A DNA stretch of 64,000 nucleotides from Oscillospiraceae bacterium (GTDB lineage Bacteria; Bacillota; Clostridia; Oscillospirales; Ruminococcaceae), in assembly GCA_022508965.1 (NCBI GenBank), contig JAFLUD010000002.1:1-64000 (forward strand). Reading direction: 5' to 3'. Shown here piece after piece: positions 38,048 to 45,486 of this stretch (position 1 is the stretch's first letter; the number at the start of each line of letters is the position of its first letter). The notes beneath the pieces are model-generated. The model was not told the DNA's origin. It did no database searches and saw only the letters and a list, made by a program, of their open reading frames with translations. Position numbers and translations under genes: made by a program.

Positions 38048-38106
38048 TTGCAAGTGTTTTTGCAGAATTTTTTTGGAAAACTTGCAAAAAATTGCAGTTT
38101 TTTGCA
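38048..38106. promoter_or_regulatory. cluster of five TTGCA iterons, candidate operator
   Basis: TTGCA at 38048, 38060, 38082, 38092, 38102 (spacings 12, 22, 10, 10 nt), including TGCAA-AAAA-TTGCA inverted repeat. Confidence 0.45.
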
Positions 38107-38195
38107 GTCGGCGGGGTGTTATGATTAAGTCAAGGGAAAGGCAAAAGGGTTTTGCGATCGGCTGCCGTTCCCGAAAATTTGAAAGAAAAGGAGGA

Positions 38196-39563
38196 ATGAA
38201 CTTGGGGATCAGAAGTTTGCTGTTCGGAAGCAGGCACTCCGATCGCGACGCAGCTCTGGCGGCGTTTTATTCGGGCGATCTGGCAAGATGGAACGACATC
38301 TACCGCGGCGGCGGCGACTGGCGTTATACGCGAAAGGGCGGCATGAACGGCGGCATGAGAAAGGTCGCTTCGCTGGGCGCCGCAAAAGCGGTCTGCGCCG
38401 AGCTTGCAAGGCTGTGCTTTACCGAAGGCTCGGAGCTTTCCTGCGCCGACAAGGAAACAGAGGCTTTTCTCAAGCGGACGCTGGACGCGAACGGATTTTA
38501 CGAAAGGTTTTCGGATTTTCTGGAGAAGATGTTCGCGCTGGGCGGTGGCGTTGTAAAGGTCTACTGGGACGGCGGCGTTAAGCTGGATTTCGTCACCGCC
38601 GACTGCTTTGTTCCGACAAAATGGGACAGCCGCGGCATAAGCGGCGGAGCGTTCGGCTCGGCTGTATGCGAGAACGGAAAAGACTATATTCTCGCGGAAA
38701 CTCAAGAGCTTACAAGCGAGGGGCTGGTTACCGAAAACAGGCTGTTCCGTGAGAGCGGCGGAGAGCTTCCGCTGTCGGAGCTTTATCCCGATATGACCGA
38801 GAAAAGCGTTATCAAGGGCCTTACAAAACCGCTGTTCGTATATTTCAGAGCGGGGGCGGGCGATCTTGCAAAATGCGCGCCGCTGGGAAGCTCGGTGTTT
38901 GCGGGGGCGGAGGATACTCTCAAATCTCTGGACATCGTTTTCGACAGCCTTTCGCGGGAATTTGTTCTCGGGAAAAAGCGCATAATCGTGCCGTCCTACG
39001 CGGTTCGCGGGGAGTATGATTCCAAGGGCGAGCTGAGGCGTTATTTCGACGTAAACGACGAGGTGTTTGAGGCGCTTTCAACGTCGGATACCGATGATCT
39101 GAAGATCACGGACAACACCGCGCAGCTTCGCGTTTCCGAGCACGTTGATGCGCTCGGCGAGCTGCTGGATCTGCTGTGTATGCAGGTGGGACTTTCGGAG
39201 GGCGCGCTGTCCTACAAAAGCGGAACCATCCGCACGGCAACCGAAGTCATCAGCAAAAACAGCCGAACCTACCGCACCACAGGGTTCTACCGAAAGATGA
39301 TCTCAAAGGGGCTTTCGAGAGTCGCGGAGAACATCTGCCTGCTGGGCAAAATGTCGGGAGAGCTTTCGCAGGGGGCTTCCGAGACAGCGACCATCCGCTT
39401 TGCCGACGGAATCTGCGAGGACGAGGGCACTAAGATCGAGCGCGCTCAAAAGCTGTTCTCAAACGGCTTGATATCGAGAGCAAGGGCGATTTCCGAGATA
39501 TACGGGATCTCCCTTGACGAGGCAAGATCAATGGAAAAGGAGGATTTTAATGATGAACGATAA
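38196..39563 (+). CDS. phage portal protein
   Basis: Start after AAAGGAGG; portal-like architecture (SPP1 gp6-like): LDLLCMQVGLSEGALSYKSGTIRTATEVISKNSRTYRTTGFYRKMISKGL. Confidence 0.85.
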   Translation: MNLGIRSLLFGSRHSDRDAALAAFYSGDLARWNDIYRGGGDWRYTRKGGMNGGMRKVASLGAAKAVCAELARLCFTEGSELSCADKETEAFLKRTLDANGFYERFSDFLEKMFALGGGVVKVYWDGGVKLDFVTADCFVPTKWDSRGISGGAFGSAVCENGKDYILAETQELTSEGLVTENRLFRESGGELPLSELYPDMTEKSVIKGLTKPLFVYFRAGAGDLAKCAPLGSSVFAGAEDTLKSLDIVFDSLSREFVLGKKRIIVPSYAVRGEYDSKGELRRYFDVNDEVFEALSTSDTDDLKITDNTAQLRVSEHVDALGELLDLLCMQVGLSEGALSYKSGTIRTATEVISKNSRTYRTTGFYRKMISKGLSRVAENICLLGKMSGELSQGASETATIRFADGICEDEGTKIERAQKLFSNGLISRARAISEIYGISLDEARSMEKEDFNDER

Positions 39564-40005
39564 CGAAACCGCCCTGACGGACGTTCAAAACGCTCCCGAC
39601 GGCGCGGAGGAGGACGGCATTCCCGCCGTTCCCGAAACGGTCGAGGAAAAGCCCGCGGACAAGCCCGCCGAGGAAGTCTCAAAGACGGCTGAGGATTCTC
39701 AAGCGGCAGTGAAACAGGACGAGCTTCTCGAAGAGATCGGTACGCTGAAAAGCGAGCTTATGCTGTCGAAGATCAAGATAGCGCTTTTGCTTTCGGGAAC
39801 TCTCCGCGAAAAGCTGGACGAGGGCGCGGCTCTCGCGGCGGGACTTTGCGCAACGGGAAAAACTCCCGAGGAGGCTGCCGCGGAAATAGCTCTCGCTTAT
39901 CCGCACCTGCGGGCTATCCGTCAGGAGATACCTCAATTTGCGGCAGGCGGCTCGGGAAGCTCGGACGGGTTTTCCGCAATCCGCAAAATATTCTCCGCAA
40001 AGTAA
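39550..40005 (+). CDS. phage scaffold-like protein
   Basis: Acidic N-terminus, coiled-coil DELLEEIGTLKSELMLSKIKIALLLSGT; located between portal and capsid. Confidence 0.6.
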   Translation: MMNDNETALTDVQNAPDGAEEDGIPAVPETVEEKPADKPAEEVSKTAEDSQAAVKQDELLEEIGTLKSELMLSKIKIALLLSGTLREKLDEGAALAAGLCATGKTPEEAAAEIALAYPHLRAIRQEIPQFAAGGSGSSDGFSAIRKIFSAK

Positions 40006-40357
40006 AAATCATTAAAATAGAGGCGGGTAGGGCGGGAATCAGAATAACGCGGAAACGGCTTTTTGCGGCTTTACGGTGCGACAAATTTAATCGGCATGGC
40101 AGAAAGCGGCGCAAAAGCCGGCTCCGCAAAGCGAGCCGTTTGCAGACGGCTTCCGTCCTTTGGTTTTTCGTTCCACACTCGGAACATTGCCAAAGGCAGA
40201 CACTCGAATCGTGCGTTACTTCTATATCGCACGTTCCCTAACGGCAACAGAATCTCGGCGGCGCATACCTTAAGCGGTTTGCTCTTAAATACCGGCGCGG
40301 CAGCCGAGGATCGCATTGCCGATTACTTTAATACATTTTTGGAAAGGAAGATTTATT

Positions 40358-41245
40358 ATGGCAACCACTAACGAATACGCAAAGATTTTTCAGAAAGAAC
40401 TGGACAAGCAGATAGTTGAGGGCTCTACCTCCGGCTGGATGGAGAACAACGCTTCTCAGGTGATCTACAACGGCGGAAACGAGGTAAAGCTCCCTAAGAT
40501 CACTCTCAAGGGTCTCGGAAAATACGACCGCGACAGCGGCTATGCAGGCGGCGCGGTTACTTACGCTTACGAGACGTTAAAGCTCACTCAGGACAGAGGC
40601 AGACGCTTTCGTATTGACGCGCTTGACGTTGACGAAAGCGGCTTCGGACTGGCAGCGGCAAACGTCGCGGCAGAGTTCCAGCGCACACAGGTGATCCCCG
40701 AGATCGACGCTTACAGATACTCTACTCTCGCAGAGGCGGCAACCATCACCAAGTCTGCTTACAATCCCGACAAGGCTAACCTGCTGTCCACTCTTCTCGG
40801 ACAGATCAGCGCGGTGCGCGAGGCTGCGGGTGACGAGAGTGAGCTGGTCGTAGCGATCGCACGCTCGGTTTACGATAAGCTGATGCTTGCTTCCGAGGTC
40901 ACTCATTCCATCGACTGCGGCAGCTTCTCTCAGGGCGACCTGGAGCTTTCCGTTAAGACCATCGCGGGTGCGGTCATTATCCCCGTTCCCTCCGCGAGAA
41001 TGAAGACCGAGTATACCTTCAGCGACACCGACGGCTTTACCGCATCGCCTACCGCAAAGCAGATCAACTGGATCATCTGCCCCAAGAACGCTCCCATTGC
41101 GGTTTCCAAGACCGATAATGTGAAGATCATTACCCCCGAGCAGAACCAGTTCGCAGACGCTTGGGATATCGACTACCGCAAGTATCACGATCTGTTTATT
41201 CCCGAAAACAAAAAGGCGGCGATCGCTGTCTGCACCGCTTCTTAA
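40358..41245 (+). CDS. phage major capsid protein (HK97-fold-like)
   Basis: MATTNEYAKIFQKELDKQIVEGSTSGWMENNASQVIYNGGNEVKLPKITLKGLGKYDRDSGYAGGAVTYAYETLKLTQDRGRRFRIDALDVDES; typical capsid N-terminus. Confidence 0.85.
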   Translation: MATTNEYAKIFQKELDKQIVEGSTSGWMENNASQVIYNGGNEVKLPKITLKGLGKYDRDSGYAGGAVTYAYETLKLTQDRGRRFRIDALDVDESGFGLAAANVAAEFQRTQVIPEIDAYRYSTLAEAATITKSAYNPDKANLLSTLLGQISAVREAAGDESELVVAIARSVYDKLMLASEVTHSIDCGSFSQGDLELSVKTIAGAVIIPVPSARMKTEYTFSDTDGFTASPTAKQINWIICPKNAPIAVSKTDNVKIITPEQNQFADAWDIDYRKYHDLFIPENKKAAIAVCTAS

Positions 41246-41327
41246 TGCAGCATAGTCCTACTTGATTTCCCATAATTGATCGGGCGGTATATGACCTATG
41301 CCGCCCGATATTTTAAAGGAGGTTTTT

Positions 41328-41780
41328 ATGATTATTTCCAAAGAAGAATTCTACGATATGGGCTTTGAGATCGACAAGCAGTATGAAGGTCTGCTGGAGA
41401 ACTGCATAAAGCGCGCGGAGTTCGTGCTTGGGAGCCTTACCGACGGCAGAGCGGGCATCATCGCCATGTCGGAAACTCCCGCCGCGGATTTTGTAAAGCA
41501 GGCTGCGGCGTTCCAGACCTACGATATCTTAAAAGGTGAGATTACGCTGGCGAAATCCGAATCGGAATCCTCCGCCGACAGCAAGTCCTCAAAGAGCGAC
41601 GAGCGCGTTTCGATCGGAGATTTTACCTATTCCACCGGAACCTCCACCAGCACCTCCAACAAAAGCTCCTCGTCGTCCGGCGAAGGCTCGTCCTCCAAAA
41701 CGGCGGATAACAGCAAGACCGTTGTAAGACTGCTTCGCGCGGCGGGCTGCTTTTACGGAGGAATGGAGGTGGCAGAATGA
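41328..41780 (+). CDS. phage head-tail connector-like protein
   Basis: MIISKEEFYDMGFEIDKQYEGLLENCIKRAEFVLGSLTDGRAG; position after capsid; Ser-rich C-terminus. Confidence 0.55.
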   Translation: MIISKEEFYDMGFEIDKQYEGLLENCIKRAEFVLGSLTDGRAGIIAMSETPAADFVKQAAAFQTYDILKGEITLAKSESESSADSKSSKSDERVSIGDFTYSTGTSTSTSNKSSSSSGEGSSSKTADNSKTVVRLLRAAGCFYGGMEVAE

Positions 41781-42115
41781 ATATAAAGCCCATTCCCGAC
41801 GAGCTTTTGGGAGAGAATATCACGCTGATAACTCCCTCGGCAGGCGGAAGCTACCGAAAAAGGATCTACAACGTCCGCGTTGAAAAGCTCGCGGCGATAA
41901 CCGATTATTCCACACAAAAAGTGCGCGACAACACCGTTATCACGGTCTGGTACGATTATTCCAATTCCTATCCGAGCGCGGAGTTTCCCGTAGGAGCGCA
42001 AGTGGAATACGACGGCGAGATATTCGAGATAATCGAACAGAAAATTTACAGCGCAGGAGCTCCCCACCACTGCAAATTCAAGGCGCGCAAAATTTCGGAT
42101 ACGGAGGTGTATTGA
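41777..42115 (+). CDS. phage head-tail completion/neck-like protein
   Basis: 112 aa; overlaps previous stop; position in the cassette. Confidence 0.45.
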   Translation: MNIKPIPDELLGENITLITPSAGGSYRKRIYNVRVEKLAAITDYSTQKVRDNTVITVWYDYSNSYPSAEFPVGAQVEYDGEIFEIIEQKIYSAGAPHHCKFKARKISDTEVY

Positions 42116-42116
42116 T

Positions 42117-42257
42117 ATGGCTGACGAGAAAAGCAAGAACGAAAAGTCCATAGGTTCCCGGGCAGCGGAGGAGAGCTATAAGGCGGCTAAGCTCTTAAAG
42201 CAGGGAAGCCGCGAGCTAGACAGGCAGATGAACACCAAGAAACTCAAGAACCGCTGA
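42117..42257 (+). CDS. 46-aa charged protein
   Basis: Reads MADEKSKNEKSIGSRAAEESYKAAKLLKQGSRELDRQMNTKKLKNR*; tightly packed between two ORFs. Confidence 0.5.
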   Translation: MADEKSKNEKSIGSRAAEESYKAAKLLKQGSRELDRQMNTKKLKNR

Positions 42258-42270
42258 ACGGAGGGGGATT

Positions 42271-42615
42271 ATGAGAATTACAATTGACGATGCCGAATTC
42301 GGCAATGTAACGGAGCTGAACGTCAAGCGAGAGCTTCGTCGGACGGATATCCGCTATAACACGCAGGGGGATATGCTGATAGACCTTGTAAACAGAAAAT
42401 ATCTGCTGGAGGTCACCTTCGGGCTGCTCAGCGAGAGCGAGCTTTCGACGCTTCGGGAGCTTTCAAAGAAGATATTCGTTTCGGTGACGTTCGACTCCCC
42501 CGAGGGCGAGATCACAGAGGATTTTCACATCTCCGACGAGCCTGCGCCCGCGCTTACCCGGGTAAACGGCGTGCGTATGTACGGCGGAGTTAAGCTAACT
42601 ATGAAACAGAGGTGA
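42271..42615 (+). CDS. phage tail-associated protein, unknown
   Basis: 114 aa; MRITIDDAEFGNVTELNVKRELRRTDIRYNTQGDMLIDLVNRKYLLEVTFGLLSESEL. Confidence 0.5.
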   Translation: MRITIDDAEFGNVTELNVKRELRRTDIRYNTQGDMLIDLVNRKYLLEVTFGLLSESELSTLRELSKKIFVSVTFDSPEGEITEDFHISDEPAPALTRVNGVRMYGGVKLTMKQR

Positions 42616-42619
42616 TACT

Positions 42620-44119
42620 ATGGTTGAGGTTTCCGAAAAGTATATGGAATTGGCGCAGGAAAGCGGCAGGCACGTCTACTGCAAAATAATCGCGGGAAAC
42701 GAGACCTTTCTCGACGACAGGATCCTCGAATTCGATTTTGACGACGTGTGCCACCCCGATTGGTACACCATCGGGACTACCTGCTCGAACCGCTTCAGCT
42801 TTTCCGTTAAATACGCGGGTGAGCTGGAGGTAAACGACGTTGTAATGCCGTATGTCAGCTTCGATAACGAGGAGTGGTGTCCGCTGGGGATATTCTATGT
42901 GGCAAGGCGCTACGTCCGCGGAAATTACGCGTCCATTATCTGCTATGACAAGTTCTATTCTCTGGACGTGGAATATTTCCCGTCTGTTCAGCTTCCCACA
43001 ACGACCGACGTTATCCTGAAGGACGTATGCTCAATGGCGGGACTTACCTGCGAAAAATTCGGGCGCGCTTACAGCGTGGAAAAAATTCCCGAGGGCTGCA
43101 CTCTGAGAGATATGATCGGTTACATTGCCGCTATGAACAGAAGCGTTGCAAAGCTCGACCGCTCGGGCGCACTGGTAATGAAGGCGTACACGCAGATGAA
43201 CTTTTTCTTCCTGTATGAAAAGAACTGCATGGATTTCAGCAGGAATATGTCTTACTCGAGAATAACCGCCCTTAAGGTGGATACCGGCGACGAGATCCTC
43301 GAGGGAGGCTCGGGCGGAGAGCTGGCGACTTTGGAATTGTACAACCCTTTTATGACGCAAAAGCGTGTTGACGATATGATCATGGAATTTGCGCCGTTCA
43401 GATTTTACGGCGCGGATATTGTCATGCAGGGAATGCCGTTTTTGGAATCGGGAGACTACATATTCTTTTACGAGAATGACAGAATGTTCTACCCAATCGC
43501 CATCGGAGAAATCGAATATCACTACGACGGAGCGCTTACGGCGACGCTTCATTCCAAAAACAAAAGCTATACCGACGCCGCCGTTCATCAAAACGACCTT
43601 GACGCCGCGCTGGAGGAGATACGCGCTCAGCTCGGAAACATCTACCTCAAGCAAACAAACGAGCAGGCGCTGAACTTGAACGCAGAGCCGCTGACTGTCG
43701 CGGATTTTGAATTCAACACTAAAGTGAAAAACACCTTCGCGCAGATCGACGCGAACTTTACTATCGACGCTTCCTCCGGGCGCACGCTTAACATCGACCT
43801 TTATGTGAACGGCGAAAAGGTCTCGAGAACGGCGGTGCATATTTCCTCTGGTTCGAGGGAGATGCTGCATTTTTACTACCTCGCGGACAAGCTCCCAAAA
43901 GGGAAAAACCATATCGAGGTGAAATTCAGCCTTGCCTCGGGAACCGCATCGATAGCCAAGCAGCAGCTTATCGCTACGCTTGTTGGAAAGGGAATGGCGG
44001 GCGGGAACAGCGACATTAACGACAGAGCGAGCTTTTTTGAAAAGCTCGGCACCTACAACATAAAAGCAAGCGCGCAGATAGTCCTCGCGGGGATTTCCGA
44101 GCAGCTGCAATCAAATTGA
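42620..44119 (+). CDS. phage baseplate/tail-hub-like protein
   Basis: 499 aa; hub-like segments (VARRYVRGNYASIICYDKFYSLD, TTDVILKDVCSMAGLTCE, EGCTLRDMIGYIAAM); C-terminal domain of jelly-roll type. Confidence 0.55.
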   Translation: MVEVSEKYMELAQESGRHVYCKIIAGNETFLDDRILEFDFDDVCHPDWYTIGTTCSNRFSFSVKYAGELEVNDVVMPYVSFDNEEWCPLGIFYVARRYVRGNYASIICYDKFYSLDVEYFPSVQLPTTTDVILKDVCSMAGLTCEKFGRAYSVEKIPEGCTLRDMIGYIAAMNRSVAKLDRSGALVMKAYTQMNFFFLYEKNCMDFSRNMSYSRITALKVDTGDEILEGGSGGELATLELYNPFMTQKRVDDMIMEFAPFRFYGADIVMQGMPFLESGDYIFFYENDRMFYPIAIGEIEYHYDGALTATLHSKNKSYTDAAVHQNDLDAALEEIRAQLGNIYLKQTNEQALNLNAEPLTVADFEFNTKVKNTFAQIDANFTIDASSGRTLNIDLYVNGEKVSRTAVHISSGSREMLHFYYLADKLPKGKNHIEVKFSLASGTASIAKQQLIATLVGKGMAGGNSDINDRASFFEKLGTYNIKASAQIVLAGISEQLQSN

Positions 44120-44132
44120 AAGGAGTGATCCT

Positions 44133-45452
44133 ATGAAAGGGAAAGCAACGCTTATTCTTACGAACAAAGATACGGGCAGGATCGTAAAGCAGATAGAAGA
44201 ACACAACATGGTGACCCACGCGCTTGACAAGATCCTTCAGGTCCCGGATATAGTGAAGATCAATATGCCGACTACGGACTATTACGGAAAGCTCTTTCCG
44301 CTGTGGAGCAATCTTCTTTCGGGAATCGTTTTGTTTGGAAACAACCTGGAGGAAAACGCATACAAGTTTATGATCCCTCCGAATGTGACCCCTATCGGTT
44401 CGGCAGGAAAAGAATACACCGGCGCCAATCCCAAGCGCGGAACTCTCAACCTGAGCCAGAGCGGTCCTATTGAAAACGGATATAGGTTTGTGTGGGATTT
44501 TGCCCCCGAAAAAGCCGTCGGGACAATACGGAGTCTGGGGCTTACAAATTATCTGTACGGAAATCTGGGATTTTCGGAGGACACGGGAACGGATAAGGCC
44601 TTTACTGTCAACCCTCAGTTTATGAACGCCATGAACAACACGTCGATATATCCGTTTATAAATGTCCCCGGAACTTTTTACGGGAAGATCGAAAACAACA
44701 ACTATTATTCTTTTTGGCTTGCATCGGGAGGCATTACTCTGTACATAAATAAGGCTCCCGATCTGAGCGCTCTGAAGATACTTGACAGTGCCGCAGAGAT
44801 GATGGAGCCGGTGACGGTCTCGCAGATACCCGTTACCCTTCCGTTTACCGTAACGAATGTTGCACATCATTTCTACGACCCGAACACCGACATACTTTAT
44901 TTCTTTTGCAACGAGATGGATTCCTCTCGTAAATACAACATTTTTCATTATGCGGGCGTCAATGTCAATACCGGAGCGGTCATAAGGCAAGGCTCGGCGT
45001 CTATCACATTTGAGCAGGCATACAATTACTTGGGATTCGCGTTCTTCAATAACAGATTTTATGTAAGTCTGAACAGCATCCCTGCCAGCAGAATGCTGGT
45101 ATTCGACCCGTCGGGGCAGCTTATAGAAACCAAGGAGCTTCCCGCAAACCACGCTCTTGACTTCTTTGTGGCAGACGGTTATCTTATGGCAAGCGAATCC
45201 TATTCCGGTATCCTGCACAAAAAGTATGTGGATTATAATAATATCCCAATGCTTTATTCGGATATCAACCGCAATACTACCTGCGGAAATATTTCCCTGC
45301 CCTATGCGGTAAAATACAACGTCAACAGCTCAAAGAGCAACCTTGGGCTGGTTTTGAGAACGGATTATCTGGCAACGATAAACAACCTTTCAGAACCGCT
45401 GGAAAAAACCGACCGCCACGCGCTTCAGATACGCTATGAGATCACCAACTGA
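44133..45452 (+). CDS. phage-type receptor-binding/fibre-like protein
   Basis: 439 aa; MKGKATLILTNKDTGRIVKQIEEHNMVTHALDKIL...; last gene of the cassette. Confidence 0.5.
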   Translation: MKGKATLILTNKDTGRIVKQIEEHNMVTHALDKILQVPDIVKINMPTTDYYGKLFPLWSNLLSGIVLFGNNLEENAYKFMIPPNVTPIGSAGKEYTGANPKRGTLNLSQSGPIENGYRFVWDFAPEKAVGTIRSLGLTNYLYGNLGFSEDTGTDKAFTVNPQFMNAMNNTSIYPFINVPGTFYGKIENNNYYSFWLASGGITLYINKAPDLSALKILDSAAEMMEPVTVSQIPVTLPFTVTNVAHHFYDPNTDILYFFCNEMDSSRKYNIFHYAGVNVNTGAVIRQGSASITFEQAYNYLGFAFFNNRFYVSLNSIPASRMLVFDPSGQLIETKELPANHALDFFVADGYLMASESYSGILHKKYVDYNNIPMLYSDINRNTTCGNISLPYAVKYNVNSSKSNLGLVLRTDYLATINNLSEPLEKTDRHALQIRYEITN

Positions 45453-45459
45453 ACAGCAA

Positions 45460-45486
45460 AAATCCCGAGAAAAACTCTCGGGATTT
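45460..45486. terminator. bidirectional terminator ending the phage cassette
   Basis: aaatcccgaga-aaaac-tctcgggattt, perfect 11-bp stem. Confidence 0.8.

Follow-up and report, generated by a model that had tools for sequence, protein, structure and literature searches.

A likely domesticated, apparently tail-less gene transfer agent dispersed over at least three chromosomal loci in a genus of gut Oscillospiraceae

Very few gene transfer agents (GTAs) are known in Gram-positive bacteria. FpGTA I/II of Faecalibacterium, published in Nature Communications in January 2026 as the first GTA from gut commensals, forms particles of ~40 nm with no identifiable tails, which contain ~8.4-8.9 kb of host DNA (PMC12946183). 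FpGTA operon I was present in 12 of 12 Faecalibacterium genomes examined; the system has a linked TerS-TerL-portal-scaffold-capsid operon, with a TerS lacking an obvious DNA-binding domain, and, in a second operon, baseplate, fibre, receptor-binding, holin and endolysin genes (PMC12946183). Here, we describe a cassette of phage-type genes at positions 38196-45452 of a 64,000-nucleotide stretch of DNA (the window) from an Oscillospiraceae bacterium, which belongs to a contig of 73,610 bases (C83) that extends past the window. In our judgement, this cassette is likely to be the head/connector/baseplate operon of a domesticated, vertically inherited and apparently tail-less GTA, which is spread over at least three chromosomal loci. 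Judged by gene content rather than sequence, FpGTA is the described system that it is most like.

As in FpGTA, the host is a gut member of the Clostridia and the gene set includes TerS, TerL, portal, scaffold and capsid. A motif-headed endolysin in the window's genome, and fibre-holin-endolysin genes in its relatives, recall FpGTA operon II in gene content only. In contrast to FpGTA, members of this genus have TerS-TerL at a locus of its own (the linked order being that of another genus, as described below), and the hub and fibre genes are joined to the head genes. Two further points set the two systems apart: a common promoter motif ties the loci together here, and a siphovirus-type origin with stepwise loss of the tail can be proposed from the relatives. 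This would be a second gut lineage with a genus-wide GTA-like system, split differently from FpGTA and endowed with a searchable promoter signature that locates its dispersed parts.

The cassette consists of nine tightly packed plus-strand open reading frames (ORFs), all of them intact (Table 1). The initial annotation was right about their intactness, strand and packing, and counted eight, having omitted g7; it was also right about the terminator, a hairpin, that ends the unit and about the ordinary chromosomal genes on both sides, which prove to be syntenic in relatives. The g2 product is considered scaffold-like because its orthologue in a linked block of another genus (L059) fits a head scaffold family (phrog_2303, E 4.5e-18 in a PHROG search). 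For two of the tail-tip genes, structural modeling was informative. The AlphaFold2 model of g7 (predicted local distance difference test score, pLDDT, 82) was matched by Foldseek to the tail tubes of phage Mu and others, with a TM-score of 0.65 for RcGTA, and g7 thus models as a tail-tube/Hcp fold. Similarly, g8 (pLDDT 82.5) models as a baseplate hub, its matches being the MuSo2/Mu gp44, T4 gp27 and Listeria gp18 hubs (E 1e-14 to 1e-10). Pfam and PHROG family searches recognised no terminase, protease, tail tube, long tape measure, lysis gene or integrase in the cassette, an Rfam search of it returned no match, and sequence searches of the portal and capsid against solved structures gave nothing useful.

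Table 1. Features of the cassette and its promoter (window coordinates), and loci at which the same promoter motif precedes initiator-like genes in related genomes
Feature	Position	Strand	Evidence and remarks
Promoter repeat TGCAGTTTTTTGCAG, 10-bp direct repeat	38093..38107	+	Also precedes TerS-TerL and the lysis operon in the same genome
-10 box TATGAT, TGT just before	38120..38125	+	27 bases from repeat start
g1, portal protein	38196..39563	+	phrog_533 E 1e-108; Pfam SPP1_portal E 2e-19
g2, scaffold-like protein	39553..40005	+	Homologous to C-terminal part of L059 orthologue
g3, major capsid protein	40358..41245	+	phrog_422 (major head protein) E 3e-102; start (ATG 40358) by sequence reading
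g4, head-tail connector, adaptor-like	41328..41780	+	Weak phrog_541 E 3e-4; L059 homologue phrog_541 E 4e-10; start 41328 read from sequence
g5, head-tail connector	41777..42115	+	Weak: Pfam Minor_capsid_1 E 3e-4 (under its cut-off); phrog_793 E 3e-4
g6, 46 aa, probable tape measure vestige	42117..42257	+	C-terminal likeness to short tape-measure-like proteins of sister genus g28
g7, tail-tube-fold protein at distal-tail (Dit) position	42271..42615	+	phrog_1194 E 6e-11; AlphaFold2 + Foldseek
g8, baseplate hub (gp27/Tal-like), C-terminal domain beta-rich	42620..44119	+	Tail family phrog_6616 E 1e-30; AlphaFold2 + Foldseek
g9, fibre-like protein	44133..45452	+	phrog_19291 (family of unknown function) E 8e-35
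Intrinsic hairpin terminator ending the unit	45460..45486	+	
Initiator loci (phage-/plasmid-type)			L226, L229, L230, L233, L235, L239, L240, L244, L248, L263, L264
Initiator loci, rest			L266, L267, L270, L271, L272, L279, L281, L285, L292, L294

Orthologues of the cassette portal are present in 33 of the 37 genus genomes searched, with 62-81% identity (one fragmentary copy being set aside), and the other portals in the same genomes share at most 42% identity with it. At most loci, the whole cassette sits between the RpiR gene and the lipase/PhoH/YbeY genes, as in the window; some lineages carry it elsewhere and some loci are partial. In close pairs, the ratio of nonsynonymous to synonymous substitution rates (dN/dS) lies at 0.05-0.13 (portal), 0.03-0.13 (capsid), 0.05-0.12 (g7), 0.10-0.27 (g8) and 0.16-0.31 (g9), g9 being the fastest-evolving gene of the cassette and going undetected in some members. 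The synonymous divergence (dS) of the cassette genes resembles that of flanking host genes. Moreover, pairwise distances between portals follow those of PhoH (r 0.92), LytB (r 0.88) and TerL (r 0.81; 25 genomes, P 1e-4), the agreement with host genes ranging overall from r 0.80 to 0.92. The conserved portal, the usual common site, the purifying selection and the host-matched divergence show that the cassette is vertically inherited under purifying selection, co-diversifying with its host, and is not decaying. We find no terminase or tape-measure module linked to it and no sibling genome with a full prophage at the locus.

These data bear on whether the cassette is a decaying prophage remnant that has survived by chance. 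Such a remnant would account for the four genus portals that have an internal stop codon, the fragmentary one, the members without a portal, and the two loci (L050, L051) that show a portal and a scaffold only. Since dN/dS is far below 1 genus-wide, the frames are intact in most genomes, and both the promoter and an unlinked terminase are conserved (see below), we regard it as highly improbable. The initial annotation, which had held that the unit does not look like simple decay and had pointed to recurrence at the same locus under purifying selection as a way to find out, is borne out in this respect.

The packaging genes that the window lacks are found elsewhere in the same genome. A Pfam terminase search identified a single TerL above the cut-off, intact and solitary, on contig C85. 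The earlier impression of a unit devoid of packaging and lysis genes therefore holds at the cassette locus and fails genome-wide, given this TerL and an endolysin on contig C99. The TerL of 408 aa has a Walker A motif (GSVRSGKT) and a CDEL motif, and is found with 68-80% identity in 28 genus genomes, unlinked to the cassette. In one genome (G035), in which the cassette and TerS-TerL are on one contig, they are ~70 kb apart. A gene of ~87 aa directly precedes TerL and is kept at the same place across the genus; its product matches no PHROG family, and we infer a TerS-like role from its position. Divergent from TerS (L103:11603-14102) lie genes for a 379-aa protein and for a highly conserved (74-86%) one of 457 aa, in which peptidoglycan-binding domains are present and SpoIID is weakly matched. 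Such a gene pair adjoins TerS-TerL in about half of the examined loci.

The unlinked loci appear to be tied together by a promoter. Across the genus, TGCAGTWWWWTGCAG stands upstream of the portal and of TerS, as part of a signature, TGCAGTWWWWTGCAGT-N11-TANNAT, built on a 10-bp direct repeat. This motif occurs at 118 sites in 41 genus genomes, versus two for a reversed-pattern control, and at 21 sites in 147 genomes from the family's other genera. In 114 distinct sites, the TANNAT hexamer begins 27 bases from the motif start, with frequencies of 0.93 (T), 0.90 (A), 0.75 (A) and 0.89 (T) at its defined positions. Because a -10-type hexamer is found at a fixed distance, the motif behaves like a promoter class. 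It is found in its exact form ahead of 27 of 33 portals. The window's genome has exactly three perfect sites, which precede the cassette, TerS-TerL on C85, and, on C99, genes whose products are a small phage-family protein (phrog_1863) and an endolysin of the amidase type (PHROG E 8e-46; Amidase_2 in Pfam, E 5e-10). From this common motif, the cassette, TerS-TerL and the lysis operon look like one regulon. Among the genes that the motif precedes in other genomes are fibre-like, XhlA-like, holin and GH25 lysozyme genes; several sites have no clear downstream gene, and not all head a recognisable phage-type gene. The PF05105 holin was considered as a genus-wide lysis gene and rejected, as only 15 of 41 genomes have it, the window's genome not being one of them. 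In the sister genus g28, a comparable repeat of different sequence is visible by eye upstream of TerS; a fixed-spacing pattern had one match in 11 genomes of that genus, the pattern being too strict to be informative on it. The open-licence literature, searched for promoter motifs or regulons of GTAs in Firmicutes, yielded nothing pertinent.

Together, these findings clearly favor the GTA-like option among those raised by the initial annotation, through the genus-wide vertical inheritance, the purifying selection, and the terminase and lysis operon under the cassette's promoter motif; they disfavor its satellite and plain-remnant options. Taken by itself, the window locus, with capsid and connector genes and neither terminase nor tail tube, would fit a capsid-forming satellite using the packaging or tails of a helper phage. 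However, there is no integrase in or beside the cassette, its syntenic site is fixed in most of the genus, it co-diversifies with host genes, and the genus conserves its own TerS-TerL under the same promoter, so that a satellite is very improbable. A DNA-free protein compartment derived from capsid genes would likewise fit a locus without terminase, yet the portal, connectors, hub and fibre are all kept under selection here and a terminase has the same promoter; we consider it even less credible.

The domesticated GTA that we favor agrees in three respects with the definition of these agents in PMC9662315. The portal, capsid, connector, hub and TerL are homologous to proteins of tailed phages; the genes are endogenised over several loci (C83, C85 and C99) with syntenic chromosomal flanks; and synteny and distance matrices attest vertical inheritance and co-diversification. 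The definition also names a genome that does not fit whole into one particle, packaging of mostly random host DNA and its delivery to other cells. On the first of these, loci that are unlinked cannot share one fragment of phage-capsid size, so that the answer would depend on the length packaged; the other two are predictions here. A siphovirus prophage would be marked by a major tail protein and a long tape measure, and the cassette shows neither. In the mechanism that we propose, one putative activator would turn on three loci together, probably in few cells: the window locus (portal, scaffold, capsid, connectors, Dit-like ring, hub and fibre), the C85 locus (small TerS-like protein and TerL) and the C99 locus (small phage-family protein and amidase endolysin). 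Capsids would assemble and TerS-TerL would pack host DNA into them. Because the tail tube and tape measure have been lost, the Dit-hub-fibre complex would seal the connector directly, and the endolysin would then open the cell, freeing small tail-less or very short-tailed particles.

Several points weigh against this reading. For this genus, the particle, its packaged DNA and its transfer are predicted from genes, the activator is postulated, and the model does not account for DNA delivery by a particle without a tail. Exact copies of the motif precede only 13 of the 28 TerL genes, most of the other TerS genes inspected having near-matches ahead of them. The genome is a draft metagenome-assembled genome, ~90% complete and in 170 contigs, and the lysis contig C99 stops shortly past the endolysin. 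The same genome also has an ordinary prophage with its own terminase on contig C138. Lastly, the absent, interrupted or fragmentary portals in some genomes indicate that the system is dispensable in places. As to the prophage itself (L130, G000:C138:10000-29900), it is a prophage-like region unrelated to the cassette, with a sheath-like protein recognised by eye.

How a tail-less particle may have arisen can be proposed from linked relatives. Genome G520 is of a different genus in this family (g254); on its contig C41, a single block (L059) with host genes on both sides encodes a TerS-like protein, TerL, portal, scaffold, capsid, two connectors, a 127-aa protein, the g7, g8 and g9 counterparts, and a holin, with no recognised tail tube or tape measure. 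Some members of the sister genus g28 have a linked block in which a major tail protein is recognised (phrog_820, best E 1e-24), as is a tape-measure-like protein of 244-253 aa (E 8e-4 for its best match to a tape measure). Related packaging genes also occur in more distant phages and prophages, and there the tape-measure-sized genes, so named by their position and length, span ~700-1600 aa. The cassette's g6 lies, like the g28 tape-measure-like gene, just before g7, and when three sequences were compared its last 26 residues aligned with the C terminus of the short g28 tape measure (E 6e-6 to 2e-5). From this short alignment, g6, which is not found in several genus members, is probably a vestigial tape measure. 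A profile of the g28 major tail protein has no match in 38 of 41 genus genomes, including the window's, a result that concerns tubes of this related type and leaves room for an unrelated type elsewhere in the genome; the three genomes with a match also hold a second, prophage-type portal. Since the linked g28 cluster keeps both a major tail protein and a ~250-aa tape-measure-like protein, we propose that the founder was a siphovirus-type prophage. The relatives indicate a stepwise loss of the phage tail, the long tape measure being reduced to ~250 aa and then to 46-51 aa or none. On our reading of the structural models, the tail-tip ring (g7) and hub (g8) would have been kept without the tube.

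This tail loss also matters for the possibility that the cassette encodes a domesticated PBSX-type particle, which would pack DNA without transferring it and be kept for strain competition. PBSX-type killing works via a tail, and neither a tail tube nor a long tape measure was found here, which makes a killing particle unlikely. It is favored by the rapid evolution of the fibre gene g9 and by the motif-headed fibre-like and lysis genes, which differ between genomes as strain-specific targeting predicts; the same possibility is kept open for FpGTA particles by its authors (PMC12946183). Like PBSX of Bacillus subtilis (named in PMC12946183), the system is Gram-positive and would yield a prophage-derived particle with host DNA, as predicted here from genes. 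In contrast to PBSX, which injects no DNA and acts like a tailocin, it has no recognised tail tube and is spread over several loci.

The domesticated GTA resembles other described agents in design. By the description in PMC9662315, BhGTA (VSH-1) of Brachyspira has a structural cluster, a single conserved terL outside it and an endolysin, and has co-diversified with its host genus, which belongs to an unrelated phylum; that description mentions no shared-promoter evidence for BhGTA. The same source portrays RcGTA and the rhodogtaviriformids as having genes over several host loci and as being inherited vertically (PMC9662315). The likeness of g7 to the RcGTA tail tube is one of fold and design only and, unlike this system, in which the tube and the long tape measure were not found, RcGTA retains a tail tube. 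A parallel may also exist with BaGTA of Bartonella, which is associated with run-off replication (PMC2697382), as phage-type initiators in related genomes share the promoter class. Unlike in BaGTA, the link to replication here consists of the promoter motif only, the window's genome having yielded no initiator.

In the related genomes, 21 motif sites precede initiator-like genes (Table 1), of which 14 belong to one cluster (two tested members have DUF6017) and seven are replisome-organiser-like. Family searches place four representatives with phage replication-initiation or DnaD-like proteins. Some initiators are single genes amid chromosomal genes, and in two similar contigs a relaxase-like gene, named by eye, is followed by the initiator. 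Some 10-mer is present at least four times in 4 of 18 initiator regions (L230, L235, L239, L294) versus 4 of 502 background ORFs; in the other 14 regions, no 10-mer exceeds three copies, iteron-like repeats thus being absent from most. The internal repeats in some initiator genes may resemble those in origins of the lambda O kind. We tentatively raise the possibility, which we rate as somewhat less likely than not, that the GTA promoter also drives phage- and plasmid-type replication initiators, in which case GTA production would be coupled to local DNA amplification ahead of packaging, or replicons would have hijacked the switch for preferential packaging. No initiator behind the motif was seen in the window's own draft genome. 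If initiators do share the switch, which DNA the GTA packages becomes directly testable.

Several minor observations concern the cassette and its motif. A gap of ~350 bases with no clear gene (40006-40357) lies between the scaffold and capsid genes in the window, and at L251 and L295 a motif copy stands immediately ahead of the capsid gene. Motif sites within one conserved coding gene (L228, L234, L236) were judged non-promoter. A conserved glycosyltransferase-like gene follows the motif in three genomes (L227, L242, L269), and genes for a GntR-like regulator and an ABC transporter follow it in two (L252, L255); a similar ABC/regulator pair adjoins the lysis operon of the window's genome in the opposite direction (L225). 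Further domesticated systems may exist in the family: at L312, L313, L316, L319 and L321, in other genera, a TerL gene that appears to be solitary or a compact phage block is found amid host genes.

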